NCBI RefSeq assembly: GCF_000013405.1
Contig: NC_007759.1
Coordinates: 745,001-809,000, forward strand
DNA: 64,000 nucleotides
Origin: Syntrophus aciditrophicus SB
GTDB lineage: Bacteria; Desulfobacterota; Syntrophia; Syntrophales; Syntrophaceae
Reading direction: 5' to 3'
Positions within the stretch are counted from its first letter, which is position 1, and every line of letters begins with the position of its first letter. The position numbers and the translations under genes were made by a program. Positions 14,147-19,235 of this stretch are shown in pieces. The notes beneath the pieces are model-generated. The model ran no database searches. It was given only the letters and a program-made list of their open reading frames with translations, and was not told the origin of the DNA.

Positions 14147-16252
14147 TCATTCATCTCCGTGCTGGAACACGACGTTACGGAAAAACCTTACGAGGGCCTG
14201 TTTGCGGTTCCGTTCTTCCAGCTGATGGGGGATGAGTTTATCGGGCGGCCAGCGCAGCAGGGACATCTCATATTCCATGATGCCGCCATAGGCATTGTTC
14301 AGATACCACGCATACAGGAGTCCGAAAAGCAGGCCTGGGGGAAGGAATCCTTCCCGGTCGTTCAGCGTGATCCCGAACGTGTTCAGGTCATGGGGACATG
14401 GCAGCATGCGAGCCAGCCTCAGATAGGCCCGCAATGCTCCATCATCAAGGAAACACGCACGATCCTGCACCGGCCGCAGCCGGATCTCATATCGCCGCGC
14501 TCCCCAGTGAAGGCCGTCTTCCGGATTCACCCAGTGACGGCTTTTCAGGTACCGCCCGAGCAGTGACTCACCCAGGGCCGTGAGCAGATTATCCCGGAGG
14601 CGTTCCGGATCGAGGTTTGCGTGTTCATGTACCTTCAGGATGCGGTCTTCAGGATCATAGTATCCCAGGACGTTATCCCACTCCTTGCTCCTTGTCCAAC
14701 GGGATGCGGGAACGATCCGCGCCCCGCAAAAGTATTTCAGATGGTCGATACGGATATCCCGGTTTTCCCAGATCATCTCATGCATGGTGTTGCGCAGGGT
14801 TTTTGATGAGAAACGTTTTTCTGCCAGGATCGCACCGATCTGCTTATAGTACGTACAGAGCAGAGGCGCATCCGCGCGGGGGGGCTTCATGAGCCGTGGA
14901 GAGAAGCGGCGCAGTGAGCCGCGTTCCTGTTTCAGATTCAATCGCTGGTGCGCAATGAGGAGCGCCCGTACCGCAAGGGCAAATTTTTGCGGATCATGAT
15001 GGATCACTCCGGCGGAATTCAGCCGCTCCCGGGAATAAATGGTTGCCTCCACAGGTAGCACTCCGAGGCTTTCCACGGAGCTTCGGTCAAGATAGATTGG
15101 GCTCTTGCCTTCCAGCGCATAGTTGCGAAGCACACTTCCCGGCATGTGTTCCAGGTTGGCGCTCAACACGACATCGAACAATCCCTCTGAACCGCCCGCG
15201 ATATTGTGATCGTAAGCCTCTACCAGATCGGATACGCGGAACCCGCGGTCCCGGCTGCGTCGCGATATGTCTGTCTCTCCTTCCTGAATCCAGAAATTGG
15301 CCCCCAGAATCTTCAGGGCCTTATGGTTCTCCCGGATGGCCTGAACAATGGGTGGGATCTGGAGGATCGGCATGATGCTCGTATAGAGGCTGCCGGGTGC
15401 GAAAAGGATAAGGTCCGCCTCCCGTATCGCCCTGCAGACGACCTCGCTCACGCGGGGAACCTCGCAGCACTCCACGGATACCCGGTCAATTGGCATCAGA
15501 CGGCGGGTAATCGCCGATTTCCTCTGTCCCCGGACCGCGACTCCGTTGCTGTAACGTAGTACAAGCTGGCCGGGGGTCGGAGTTGCCGGATGCAGGCAGC
15601 CCGGGGTCACTCCAATGGCCTGAGCGAGTGCCTCGATTCCTTTTTCGATGGCGTCCATGCCCGGATGACGATTGCTCCCTGTCTTACCATTGAATTGAAA
15701 TATGGCCGCCGTGAGCAGCAGATTTCCCAGGCAGTGTCCACCCGGCGCAATAACCGGTCCCCCTCCGCCCGGAGAGACATAACGGCCGAAGGATGACAAC
15801 AGATCAGCCAGATCTTTCGGGCAGTATTTCCGCAGATGCCTGGGGACGACGAGGAGAGGGTTGACGACATGCTGGAAATTCCTGCATCCGCTCGGGAAGC
15901 GATGGTTGAAAATGCAATGAATCACGCGGATGATCTGCCGGGTCAGAACATCGTCAAGACCGTGGAGCTTCTGAAGGTTTTTATGCAGAATTAGAGAAAG
16001 CAGGAGCTTTCGGAAGTCACCGATCCCGATCATCGGCAGTTCCTGCAGGAGCAGGCCCGTTGATCCTCCGTCATCTGTTGTGCACACGACGACATCCAGG
16101 AGGGGAAAATCCTGCTTCAGCCCGATAAAGGGATTCTCGGGCCAGTCGTCAAGCTGGGAATTCCCGCCGATCACCGTGGAGAGCCCTGTCCCGCCTCCGA
16201 AAGTCACAATCCGTTTTGCACGGCATTCAAAGGAATAAATCTCATCCGCCAT
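14147..16252 (-). CDS. CofD/YvcK-family protein (gluconeogenesis factor-like), long form
   Basis: At least 701 aa. The N-terminal third is a CofD/YvcK domain: RIVTFGGGTGLSTVIGG, then CTTDDGGSTG and IGIGDFRKLLLSLI, and later LILFAPGSLYTSIMPIL. CofD enzymes transfer phospho-lactate to F420 precursors. YvcK members bind UDP-sugars and affect cell-wall and gluconeogenic growth. The conserved domain ends near residue 430 and is followed by about 270 unrecognised residues, far longer than YvcK (about 320-450 aa). The frame stays open for over 60 codons upstream of this ATG with no ATG/GTG/TTG, and a strong Shine-Dalgarno sits before an in-frame ATT at 16360, so the true N-terminus may be 36 residues longer. 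It is divergent from the amino-sugar cluster, consistent with a YvcK-like role. Confidence 0.85.
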   Translation of the reverse strand: MADEIYSFECRAKRIVTFGGGTGLSTVIGGNSQLDDWPENPFIGLKQDFPLLDVVVCTTDDGGSTGLLLQELPMIGIGDFRKLLLSLILHKNLQKLHGLDDVLTRQIIRVIHCIFNHRFPSGCRNFQHVVNPLLVVPRHLRKYCPKDLADLLSSFGRYVSPGGGGPVIAPGGHCLGNLLLTAAIFQFNGKTGSNRHPGMDAIEKGIEALAQAIGVTPGCLHPATPTPGQLVLRYSNGVAVRGQRKSAITRRLMPIDRVSVECCEVPRVSEVVCRAIREADLILFAPGSLYTSIMPILQIPPIVQAIRENHKALKILGANFWIQEGETDISRRSRDRGFRVSDLVEAYDHNIAGGSEGLFDVVLSANLEHMPGSVLRNYALEGKSPIYLDRSSVESLGVLPVEATIYSRERLNSAGVIHHDPQKFALAVRALLIAHQRLNLKQERGSLRRFSPRLMKPPRADAPLLCTYYKQIGAILAEKRFSSKTLRNTMHEMIWENRDIRIDHLKYFCGARIVPASRWTRSKEWDNVLGYYDPEDRILKVHEHANLDPERLRDNLLTALGESLLGRYLKSRHWVNPEDGLHWGARRYEIRLRPVQDRACFLDDGALRAYLRLARMLPCPHDLNTFGITLNDREGFLPPGLLFGLLYAWYLNNAYGGIMEYEMSLLRWPPDKLIPHQLEERNRKQALVRFFRNVVFQHGDE

Positions 16253-16357
16253 GCGGGAGATAGAACTTCCGTGAGGCCCTTTGGGAATCGTCTGGTTAAT
16301 GACCGTTTCCAGAAGCTGGTCGACGTACCGTCCGGTCTGTGATGCCCGCTTTAAGGA

Positions 16358-16375
16358 AATAGAGTTTACCTCCCT
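16358..16375 (-). promoter_or_regulatory. Shine-Dalgarno with ATT as possible start codon of the CofD-like gene
   Basis: On the - strand AGGGAGGT (16375-16368) is followed after 7 nt by ATT (16360-16358), in frame with the CofD-like gene 36 codons before its first ATG. No other canonical start exists back to the upstream stop TAA near 16443. The ATG at 16252 has no recognisable ribosome site. Confidence 0.5.
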
Positions 16376-16603
16376 GAATAGAGCCCTGTGAAAAGCGGTG
16401 AGCTCAAGGATTGACAGGATGAGATTGGTATAAGCCTGCTTTTATAGAAACGGAACTATAGGGAGATCATCTGAGTGTGTCAATGTTAAAATGAAATGAA
16501 TCCATATGAAATCCAGACCGGTCCGGATTCGGCAAAAATTTCTAAAAAAATCTTGAAATCTATAAGGATTAATATAATATCCCTCCACTTTGGAGGAGAG
16601 AAT

Positions 16604-17854
16604 ATGGACATTCAACCGAGATGTTATGACAAAGTCATTCAGTTGATGAAGAAGGGCGTTGATATTCCCAATCCCCTTACCCTGGATCTGGGCGACGAGG
16701 TCAGGGTGGATCAGATATCCGGAGATGGCGTCAAAATTTATCCAGGGTGCCGGCTCTACGGTGAAAAGACGGTTATCTCAGCAGGTTGCCGGATTGGCTA
16801 TGAAAGTCCGGTCACCATTGATAACTGCCAGTTAGGGACCGACGTTGAATTGAAAGGCGGATATTTTACGGAATCCGTCTTCCTGGACAAGGCGAACATG
16901 GGATCCGGGGCGCAGGTGCGTGAAGGCTGCATTCTCGAGGAGGAAGCCAACGGCGCCCATTGTGTCGGCCTGAAACAGACCATTCTTTTCCCTTTTGTCA
17001 CTCTCGGCAGCCTGATCAACTTCTGTGATTGTCTGATGGCCGGAGGGACAAGTCGGAAGGTTCACAGCGAGGTAGGCAGTTCTTATATTCATTTTAACTT
17101 TACGCCGGACGGGGATAAAACCACGGCGTCGCTTTTCGGTGATGTGCCGAGAGGCGTCATGCTCAATCAACCTCCCATTTTTCTCGGCGGCCAGGGCGGC
17201 ACTGTAGGTCCTTCCCGCATGGGATACGGCAACGTCGTTGCCGCCAACTCGGTGCTGAGGAATGATTTTATTGAAGACAACAAACTGATTGTCGAAAAGG
17301 CACAAAGCGGAAAGATCATCGATTTCATGCCCCGGGCATATCCGAACATCCGCCGGGTTGTGGAAAACAACGTTATCTATATCGCCAATCTCAGAGCCCT
17401 TGAGGAATGGTACCTGCGTGTGAGGCGCCCTTTCTTTGATGACCATGAATTCGGTTCGCTTATTTTTTCAGGGCTGCTTGACAAACTCGGCCTGGCGACA
17501 AAAGAACGGATCAAACGTTTACAGGTGATGGCTGAAAAAGCGAAAAGTTCTAACGAAGCGGATGCGGCAGCAGAACCGGGAATATTCGAAAGAAACGAAT
17601 TTTTTGAGAAGTTTGCAGAGATAGAGGCGCTGTTCACTGTACCCTTGGATGGCGGTATCGAAAAATACCGCGATGATTTTCTCTCTGCTTTGCATAAAGC
17701 CGGGAGCGAAAAAAGCGCCGGATATATCGCTGTTATACAGGGACTGCCCGCGAATGTCGCTTATAAGGGGACCGCATGGCTTCAGAGGATTGTCGATACC
17801 TTTTGCCAGAAGACACAAGAGGTTTTTCCGAGATTGAAGCTGTTCGGTAAATAA
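16604..17854 (+). CDS. Left-handed beta-helix protein, GlmU acetyltransferase-domain-like, without a uridylyltransferase domain
   Basis: A 416-aa protein starting MDIQPRCYDKVIQLM after GGAGGAGAG (ATG 16604; the frame is open further but without a ribosome site). Residues about 35-260 contain hexapeptide-type repeats (ISAGCRIGYESPVTIDNCQLGT; FLDKANMGSGAQV). A segment NFTPDGDKTTASLFGDV resembles the NYDG..K..T active-site region of GlmU, and VGPSRMGYGNVVAANSVLRND resembles the next GlmU coils. The N-terminal nucleotidyltransferase domain (GxGTRM) is absent. The C-terminal 150 residues are helical and unrecognised. TATAAT at 16573-16578 is a possible -10 box. It lies 31 nt before glmM, so a role in UDP-GlcNAc synthesis is likely but inferred. 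Confidence 0.8.
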   Translation: MDIQPRCYDKVIQLMKKGVDIPNPLTLDLGDEVRVDQISGDGVKIYPGCRLYGEKTVISAGCRIGYESPVTIDNCQLGTDVELKGGYFTESVFLDKANMGSGAQVREGCILEEEANGAHCVGLKQTILFPFVTLGSLINFCDCLMAGGTSRKVHSEVGSSYIHFNFTPDGDKTTASLFGDVPRGVMLNQPPIFLGGQGGTVGPSRMGYGNVVAANSVLRNDFIEDNKLIVEKAQSGKIIDFMPRAYPNIRRVVENNVIYIANLRALEEWYLRVRRPFFDDHEFGSLIFSGLLDKLGLATKERIKRLQVMAEKAKSSNEADAAAEPGIFERNEFFEKFAEIEALFTVPLDGGIEKYRDDFLSALHKAGSEKSAGYIAVIQGLPANVAYKGTAWLQRIVDTFCQKTQEVFPRLKLFGK

Positions 17855-17885: not shown

Positions 17886-19235
17886 ATGGGTAAACTTTTC
17901 GGAACGGATGGCGTCAGAGGCGTTGCCAATGAATATCCCATGACGGCGGAAATGGCCTTGAACATTGGAAGGGCGACCGCGTTCATGTTCAAACGCGAGG
18001 GCCATAATCCCAAAATTCTTATCGGAAAAGATACTCGGCTTTCCGGCTACATGCTTGAAAATGCCCTGGTTTCCGGCATCTGCTCTATGGGTGTCAATGC
18101 GATTCTCGTCGGCGTCATTCCGACGCCGGGCATTGCCTATCTGACCAGCAGCATGAGGGCTGATGCCGGGATCGTCATCTCCGCATCCCACAATCCTTTT
18201 CAGGACAACGGCATAAAAATCTTTTCCGGTGACGGTTTCAAACTTCCTGATGAGACGGAACTGGCCATTGAAGATATGATTCTGAACAATAAAATGGATC
18301 AACTTCTGCCCAGGGTAAGCGAATTGGGCAAGGCCTATCGCATGGATGACGCCCGGGGGCGTTATATCGTGTTTCTAAAGCATACCTTTCCCCGGGAACT
18401 TTCCCTGGAAGGCGTCAAGGTCGTCCTGGACTGCGCCAATGGGGCGACTTACCGGGTGGCGCCGGAAACATTCTACGAACTGGGCGCGGAAGTCACAACC
18501 CTGTTCGACGATCCCGATGGAAGAAATATCAATGTGAATTGCGGCTCTCAATACCCGGAAACTCTGGCCGCTGAAGTTTTGAAACAGGGCGCTGACGTCG
18601 GTTTCGCTTTTGACGGCGACGGCGACCGGCTGATTGCCGTCGATGAAAAAGGCAACGTCCTGACGGGAGATCAGGTTATTGCGATCTGCGCCAATGTGAT
18701 GAAAAAGGAAGGGAAGCTGACCAAAAATCTCGTTGTCAGAACCGTCATGAGCAATATCGGCCTTTCCGTCGCTCTCGAAAAGCTTGACATCAACTCCATC
18801 ATGACAAAGGTGGGCGACCGGTATGTTCTGGAGGAAATGCAGGCCAACGGCAGTTCCATCGGCGGCGAAGATTCCGGGCATGTGATCTTTTTACAGCATC
18901 ACACGACAGGGGACGGGATTGTCACGGCGATCCAGGTTATCGCGGCAATGAAAAAAGAAGGGAAACCCCTGTCCGATCTGGCGAAAATCATGGACGTTTT
19001 CCCCCAGACCCTCATCAATGTGGATACCAAGTCACGACCGGAAATATCCACGGTTCCGGAACTTGTTGCCGTCATCAAATCGGTGGAAGAAAAGTTGGGA
19101 ACGAGCGGCCGGGTCCTTGTCCGGTATTCGGGGACGCAGAACATGTGCCGCGTCATGGTGGAAGGCCCCACCCAGGAAGAAACCCTCAAATATTGCAAAC
19201 AGATCGCCGATGTGGTGAAGGAAGAGCTCGGCTGA
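17886..19235 (+). CDS. glmM: Phosphoglucosamine mutase
   Basis: 449 aa, full length. It interconverts glucosamine-6-phosphate and glucosamine-1-phosphate for peptidoglycan and LPS precursors. Visible motifs are the start GKLFGTDGVRGVANEYP, the phosphoserine loop VISASHNPFQDNG (Ser101), the Mg-binding DGDGDR, the sugar-specificity loop GGEDSGHVIF (GEXSG of GlmM) and the C-terminal phosphate-binding RYSGTQNMCRVMVEG. GGAGG precedes the ATG. It sits between the beta-helix protein and the NagB-like gene with 26-31 nt gaps, so the three probably form an amino-sugar operon. Confidence 0.97.
   Translation: MGKLFGTDGVRGVANEYPMTAEMALNIGRATAFMFKREGHNPKILIGKDTRLSGYMLENALVSGICSMGVNAILVGVIPTPGIAYLTSSMRADAGIVISASHNPFQDNGIKIFSGDGFKLPDETELAIEDMILNNKMDQLLPRVSELGKAYRMDDARGRYIVFLKHTFPRELSLEGVKVVLDCANGATYRVAPETFYELGAEVTTLFDDPDGRNINVNCGSQYPETLAAEVLKQGADVGFAFDGDGDRLIAVDEKGNVLTGDQVIAICANVMKKEGKLTKNLVVRTVMSNIGLSVALEKLDINSIMTKVGDRYVLEEMQANGSSIGGEDSGHVIFLQHHTTGDGIVTAIQVIAAMKKEGKPLSDLAKIMDVFPQTLINVDTKSRPEISTVPELVAVIKSVEEKLGTSGRVLVRYSGTQNMCRVMVEGPTQEETLKYCKQIADVVKEELG

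Follow-up and report, generated by a model that had tools for sequence, protein, structure and literature searches.

AUU start codons are a known, very small class of translation starts, and to our knowledge few of them have been verified outside infC. The infC gene itself starts with ATT in E. coli and with ATC in Streptomyces (PMC5472188), and profiling has detected an AUA start for infC of S. aureus (PMC13009471). According to the latter report, reporters with AUU or AUA starts of S. aureus yielded about 10% of what AUG gave in poor medium, and an AUA start of citZ is described for the NCTC 8325 lineage only. The switch from an ancestral AUG start to AUU was counted once in 61,358 cases across 36 genome groups (PMC5622118). 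Belinky and colleagues found stronger Shine-Dalgarno sequences (SDs) with GUG and UUG starts, and start switches that were not significantly coupled to SD switches (PMC5622118).

The CofD-family gene described here would add to the class of AUU starts. It lies on the reverse strand of the window (the whole stretch of 64,000 nucleotides that was analysed, to which all positions refer unless another locus is named), and comparison with its relatives indicates that ATT 16360 is probably its start, the product then having 737 rather than 701 residues. Among the papers covered by a literature search, none on the start of this gene was found.

The start region

Codons are numbered here from the first one after TAA 16444-16442 (q1), ATT being q28 and ATG 16252 being q64. 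The preliminary description had reported a frame open for more than 60 codons before its first ATG and free of ATG, GTG and TTG. This is true, since 63 such codons (q1-q63) can be listed between TAA 16444-16442 and ATG 16252-16250. ATT 16360-16358 is in frame with this ATG, 36 codons 5' of it, and the strong SD that had been placed 7 nt before it was found exactly as described: AGGGAGGT at 16375-16368 is followed by AAACTCT and then by ATT. Between q28 and q39, ATT at q28 is the only codon of the types AUN, CUG, GUG and UUG in the window. The further statement that ATG 16252 has no ribosome site needs to be qualified, because it holds for sites at a usable spacing only: 13 nt upstream of this codon there is a weak GGAAG. 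The coordinates of all features are collected in Table 1.

Table 1. Features of the CofD-family gene, its leader and its neighbours in the window
Feature	Coordinates	Strand	Basis
Promoter -35, TTGACA	16478..16483	-	TTGACA-17-TATAGT, 11/12 positions
Promoter -10, TATAGT, which would put the start of the transcript near 16448	16455..16460	-	
TAA in frame, 5' limit of the open frame; the transcript would start a few nt before it	16442..16444	-	
Leader element GAGCTC...GGGCTC, common to close relatives; possible hairpin	16381..16405	-	Five-pair consensus stem
Shine-Dalgarno AGGGAGGT, 7 nt before ATT	16368..16375	-	-12.5 kcal/mol, assumed anti-SD
Proposed start codon ATT, q28 of the stop-to-stop frame	16358..16360	-	Homology-bounded interval and SD
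AAG, q31; ATG in this column in L002, L012, L013, L029, L030	16349..16351	-	
36-codon N-terminal extension, absent from the ATG-started model	16253..16360	-	Core YVDQLLETVIN; predicted helices
Earliest ATG of the frame (residue 37 if translation starts at ATT), not taken as the start	16250..16252	-	
CofD-family gene as proposed, 737 aa and stop	14147..16360	-	Pfam CofD PF01933, alignment, AlphaFold2
Divergent left-handed beta-helix protein, resembling the GlmU acetyltransferase half	16604..17854	+	Below curated cut-offs
glmM, phosphoglucosamine mutase	17886..19235	+	TIGR01455, 605.5 bits vs cut-off 447.55

Conservation of the N-terminal extension

Homologues were collected by searching relatives (11 of 60 matched at E <= 0.001, 6 weakly), the order (5 of 155 genomes at E <= 1e-60) and the phylum (30 of 395 at E <= 1e-60), with the own genome counted in each search, and 17 further loci came from a named genome collection. 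Their stop-to-stop frames were aligned in 45 rows. Copies of L012 and L014 (L003 and L004), partial matches (L005, L028, L049 and L053) and weak matches (L006-L011) were left out of this alignment, and the count of 42 relatives used below excludes L001, L002 and the 5'-truncated L056.

Residues identical to those of the window were counted in the 24 relatives that are at least 50% identical to it, two duplicate pairs included. They amount to 30/355 in q1-27, 45/286 in q28-39, 129/264 in q40-50 (YVDQLLETVIN), 77/308 in q51-63 and 95/288 in q64-75, and in the 45-row alignment the core of the extension is recognisable beyond the order. The preliminary description had held that homologues without similarity in the 36-codon extension would speak against the ATT start; similarity was found, in q40-50. 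Conservation is weak over the first dozen residues that follow ATT, so that homology places the start within a range of about q28-q39, in which no start codon but ATT is plausible.

The codons of the window were also compared, without gaps, with those of the five nearest readable relatives (L002, L012, L013, L029 and L030). In q1-27, 23-26 of the 27 codons differ in meaning. In q32-63 the third position is the most often changed against all five, slightly so in L002 (7, 5, 10), and q32-39 alone shows little of this. Against L029, q1-27 too has a third-position excess (16, 15, 24), so that the third-position test is not clean.

Start codons in relatives

Start codons were compared in 22 of the 43 relative rows, namely the closer ones with an alignable N-terminus, the rest being more distant or different at the N-terminus; pooling L027/L032 and L015/L031 reduces the 22 rows to 20. 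All 22 have ATG or TTG at q28-q32. ATG is found at q31 in the five nearest readable relatives, L019, L033 and others, at q28 in L016, L017 and L027/L032, and at q32 in L035 and L036; TTG is found at q28, together with ATG at q31, in L015/L031, L018 and L020, and at q29 in L014. The AUU position q28 is therefore a start-codon position in some homologues, others having a canonical codon at q29-q32. From this alignment, the position of the start seems to have moved between q28 and q31 within the CofD-like family. At L019:4013-4024, TTT occupies q28 where L020 has TTG, with ATG at q31 left.

A canonical codon precedes q40 in 42 of 42 aligned relatives (at q28-q32 in 22 of them) and in L002, which has ATG at q31 and a TGA that breaks its frame further upstream; none of these shares the ATT start, and among the 44 compared only the genome of the window lacks a canonical start. 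As the relatives carry ATG or TTG, there is no conservation of the rare codon, which may be no more than a tolerated change. At q31 the window has AAG, one base from the ATG of the five nearest readable relatives, and an alternative alignment with a codon-sized indel would place TTA opposite this ATG. The column of ATG 16252 holds ATG in 5 and TTG in 3 of the 42 relatives, all of which have an earlier canonical codon, and hence is not a conserved start.

Strength of the Shine-Dalgarno sequence

All duplex energies were calculated with an assumed standard anti-SD and not with one read from the 16S of this genome, where a pattern search and RF00177 gave no match to a 16S gene. The duplex reaches -12.5 kcal/mol before ATT vs -5.0 before ATG 16252. 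The background sample consisted of the window and 20 stretches of 20 kb from the same genome (464 kb), with 218 ORFs of 250 aa or more that do not overlap one another. An SD as strong as that of ATT precedes the best start of 13 of these 218 ORFs (a count worked back from fractions). Inside genes it precedes 71 of 10176 in-frame ATT, ATC, ATA and CTG codons (0.70%), or 11 of 2191 when ATT alone is considered. With 8 codons of these four kinds in the 63-codon stretch, chance would provide an SD this strong in about 5-6% of stretches, so that the SD is suggestive and not decisive, and the decision falls to the relatives. Among the 196 near-cognates in 5' extensions of the 218 ORFs, five, one of them this ATT, are preceded by an SD of -10 kcal/mol or stronger; the other four in the 464 kb were set aside as ordinary or spurious by eye.

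Candidate starts of the relatives have SDs weaker than that of ATT in 21 of the 22 rows, the exception being a canonical start in L017 (-15.4). Canonical candidates with almost no SD (-1.0 to +0.4) occur in L034 (q31), L035, L036, L037 and L041, and for this reason a poor SD alone does not exclude ATG 16252. To judge from the candidates of some relatives, the CofD-like genes of this family do not always use an SD. By eye, SD and ATG are already 11-14 nt apart in L002, L013, L029 and L030, which makes an ATG at q31 served by the same SD less odd here.

The infC gene of the same genome (L058:1492, G000:C1 about 654,908) has an ATA behind AGGAGGTG, with an SD of -13.6 kcal/mol, and an in-frame ATG 12 codons upstream with an SD of -3.7. 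As read in this single genome, infC probably starts at ATA and its start annotation may be misplaced. This anatomy suggests that near-cognate starts with strong SDs are probably already at work in this cell.

Promoter and leader

The motif TTGACA-17-TATA(G/T)(T/C) is present in all seven loci searched, which are those whose leaders align (the window, the five nearest readable relatives and L061); no such motif was seen by eye upstream of nine other printed loci. From the consensus and its conservation we infer a transcript start near 16448, just above TAA, which would leave no in-frame start further upstream.

Promoter and leader (16368-16483, reverse strand) are common to close relatives and include a GAGCyC...GGGCTC stem. 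Six leaders folded together gave 8 consensus pairs with a negligible covariation term (-0.22) and local fold energies not clearly below those of shuffles, and an Rfam search returned one chance-level match (RF01500, E 3.3). Given this match and the negligible covariation, an RNA element is not claimed; the leader is perhaps a control element, which six sequences are too few to show. In some relatives a T-rich stretch follows the leader stem, and the fold of L002 would hide the SD. In the window, SD and ATT lie within a small predicted hairpin of -7.3 kcal/mol (shuffles: mean -5.0, sd 2.3) that would lower initiation, if formed. The leader also contains one out-of-frame TTG (TTG AGC TCA ... TAA), whose reading ends 7 nt before ATT. 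A similar short reading is present in L002, and a coupled leader peptide was dropped because the TTG reading is not kept in L012, L013, L029 and L030 (by eye).

The protein and its genomic neighbourhood

The protein matches Pfam CofD (PF01933) with 155.2 bits, the gathering cut-off being 30. Its score with the YvcK/GlmR profile TIGR01826 (121.3 bits) is below the curated cut-off of 196, and it falls below all the NCBIfam cut-offs for YvcK, GAK-system CofD and F420 CofD. The YvcK profile nevertheless matches 41 of 41 alignment members at E <= 1e-3, so that the protein is a relative of YvcK/GlmR and not a member. Identity to its two nearest relatives is 77-79%, and in q100-200 changes are concentrated at third positions. 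In the 701-residue reading, the Pfam CofD match runs over residues 15-404 and that of the YvcK profile as far as residue 430, which leaves about 270-300 C-terminal residues outside known families. About 270 C-terminal residues (14150-14960, reverse strand) are conserved among the 41 aligned relatives.

PDB searches with the whole protein gave significant matches to CofD/YvcK structures only. Foldseek identified B. halodurans BH3568 (2hzb) with a probability of 1.00 and a TM of 0.88 by target, and the structures matched by the CofD domain are those of BH3568 (2hzb, 2o2z), with weaker matches to CofD and FbiA. AlphaFold2, run with the ATT-started 737-residue protein on a 41-sequence alignment, gave a mean pLDDT of 88.9 and a pTM of 0.90. 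Helices are predicted at residues 2-22 and 31-43, before the first strand (50-55), with a mean pLDDT of 65 for residues 1-10, 93 for 11-20, 85 for 21-30 and 92 for 31-40. ATG 16252, as residue 37, is located within helix 31-43, which is predicted with confidence. Because the alignment behind this model includes the extension, the model indicates that the extension fits a fold, and its translation is not thereby shown.

The neighbour at 16604-17854 matches the GlmU acetyltransferase half with an E of 1.3e-11, far below the cut-off. This GlmU-like gene is divergent to the CofD-like gene in the window, L002, L012, L014, L029 and L030, and on the same strand in L015, L017-L020, L027 and L031-L033. 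It had no match in L013 (4 kb of flank on each side) or in more distant loci, where the flank length varies among loci. Elsewhere in the genome, a 261-codon open frame (G000:C1:730839-731549) matches the GlmU N-half. The two GlmU halves lie apart, the uridyltransferase-like one in this frame and the acetyltransferase-like beta-helix beside glmM and the CofD-like gene, and GlmU seems, from these matches, to be split in this genome. The idea that the CofD-like protein is a missing GlmU uridyltransferase is weakened by this separate frame. YvcK/GlmR proteins are described as binding UDP-GlcNAc or having a role in its synthesis (PMC7525490, PMC10128056, PMC6171935, PMC5482804), and by analogy it might be guessed that the CofD-like protein acts in UDP-GlcNAc supply.

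Alternative explanations and proposed mechanism

The main rival to the ATT start is a sequence error, in which q31 (16351-16349) is really ATG and an ordinary gene starts as its closest relatives do. The five nearest readable relatives all have ATG there, a single wrong base in AAG would remove the need for ATT, and the SD-ATG spacings of relatives include the 11-14 nt mentioned above. However, the window comes from a single-contig genome of 3,179,300 bases, and wrong bases should be rare in a finished genome. Besides, the SD would sit 16 nt from q31, further than in those relatives, and is well placed for ATT and stronger than in any of the five, which renders an error improbable. A second reading of the AAG base was sought in congeners, where the G001 contig stops within the leader and G002 has no match to the gene. 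Translation from ATG 16252, with the extension untranslated and a protein of 701 residues, is a different possibility. This is the first canonical codon, as in the ORF list, its column is also ATG in some relatives (5/42), the candidate starts of others likewise lack an SD, and a weak promoter-like match is present at 16392-16363. This match covers only 9 of 12 positions, three such matches having been found where 0.8 (sd 1.1) are expected, and the SD is of only -5.0. A start at ATG 16252 is made highly improbable by the conserved extension core, the third-position excess in q32-63, the earlier canonical codon of all 42 relatives and the predicted structure, in which the protein would begin mid-helix.

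The gene could also have lost its start and be on its way to a pseudogene that yields hardly any product or none, as the absence of a canonical start from this genome alone, among the 44 compared, might suggest. This is scarcely to be expected of 737 open codons with 77-79% identity to the two nearest relatives, with the third-position pattern of q100-200, and with both the promoter-like element and the SD intact, the latter being stronger than the SD of the candidate start in 21 of the 22 relatives. The proposal of the preliminary description that this CofD/YvcK-like gene may start at ATT is thus supported by the relatives, the SD, the promoter and the predicted helix.

In the mechanism proposed for the ATT start, transcription from the sigma-70-type promoter would begin near 16448 and produce a leader of about 88 nt. 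Ribosomes would bind the strong, well-spaced AGGGAGGT, and fMet-tRNA would initiate at AUU 16360. The q31 ATG of the closest relatives would have become AAG here, or have been lost via a codon-sized indel, and initiation would have shifted by three codons in the 5' direction, to an AUU at the position that is ATG or TTG in a second group of relatives. The stronger SD would compensate in part for AUU. The product would belong to the CofD superfamily and have 737 residues, and a start at ATG 16252 would cut its predicted N-terminal helices. By the known behaviour of AUU starts, expression would be low and IF3-sensitive; this low output and sensitivity, like AUU initiation and the compensation by the SD, are what we infer, and what we observe is the layout of the sequence, the limits that homology sets to the start, the lack of canonical alternatives and the recurrence of the promoter motif. 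IF3-controlled genes include infC and sigR of Streptomyces. By analogy IF3 feedback control is plausible, and the fact that no relative shares the rare codon counts against a purposeful control of this kind. A fuller history can be put forward tentatively, and is doubtful as a whole: a relocation in one species, in which the ATG of a CofD-family gene beside GlmU-like and GlmM genes was destroyed, AUU three codons upstream and a strengthened SD rescued the gene, and a probably UDP-GlcNAc-linked protein came under IF3-dependent low-level translation in a cell whose infC also uses AUA.

Start finders restricted to ATG, GTG and TTG truncate such proteins, and here the first 36 residues would be lost. 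The ATT start would supply a corrected N-terminus for a conserved CofD-family protein encoded beside UDP-GlcNAc synthesis genes. A comparison within the order, with ATG in relatives and ATT here, offers a case in which start loss and SD compensation can be measured.

Comparison with known systems

The protein resembles the CofD/YvcK-GlmR superfamily (UPF0052) in its Pfam CofD score above the cut-off and its fold match to BH3568, and differs from it in the helices predicted at its N-terminus and in about 270-300 residues at its C-terminus that the Pfam and YvcK matches leave uncovered. Its start resembles those of infC (AUU, AUA or AUC) in having a near-cognate AUN behind a strong, well-placed SD. 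However, the rare start of infC serves autoregulation (PMC5472188), whereas that of the CofD-like gene is found in one genome and belongs to a product without a known tie to initiation. The pncA gene (BBE22) of Borrelia burgdorferi also has an AUU start for which databases list a shorter protein, and in that case the fold depends on the N-terminus that is left out (PMC13398362). The pncA start is backed by genetics, biochemistry and a crystal structure, and the CofD-like gene by sequence and a predicted model. In S. aureus, cvfC1 (AUU), ccpN (AUA) and infC (AUA) likewise combine a rare start with a strong extended SD. The codon of cvfC1 is kept among staphylococci and that of ccpN between S. 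aureus and B. subtilis (PMC13009471), while the ATT of the CofD-like gene is unshared. A rare start kept among relatives is a mark of regulatory use, and it is not required of AUU starts.
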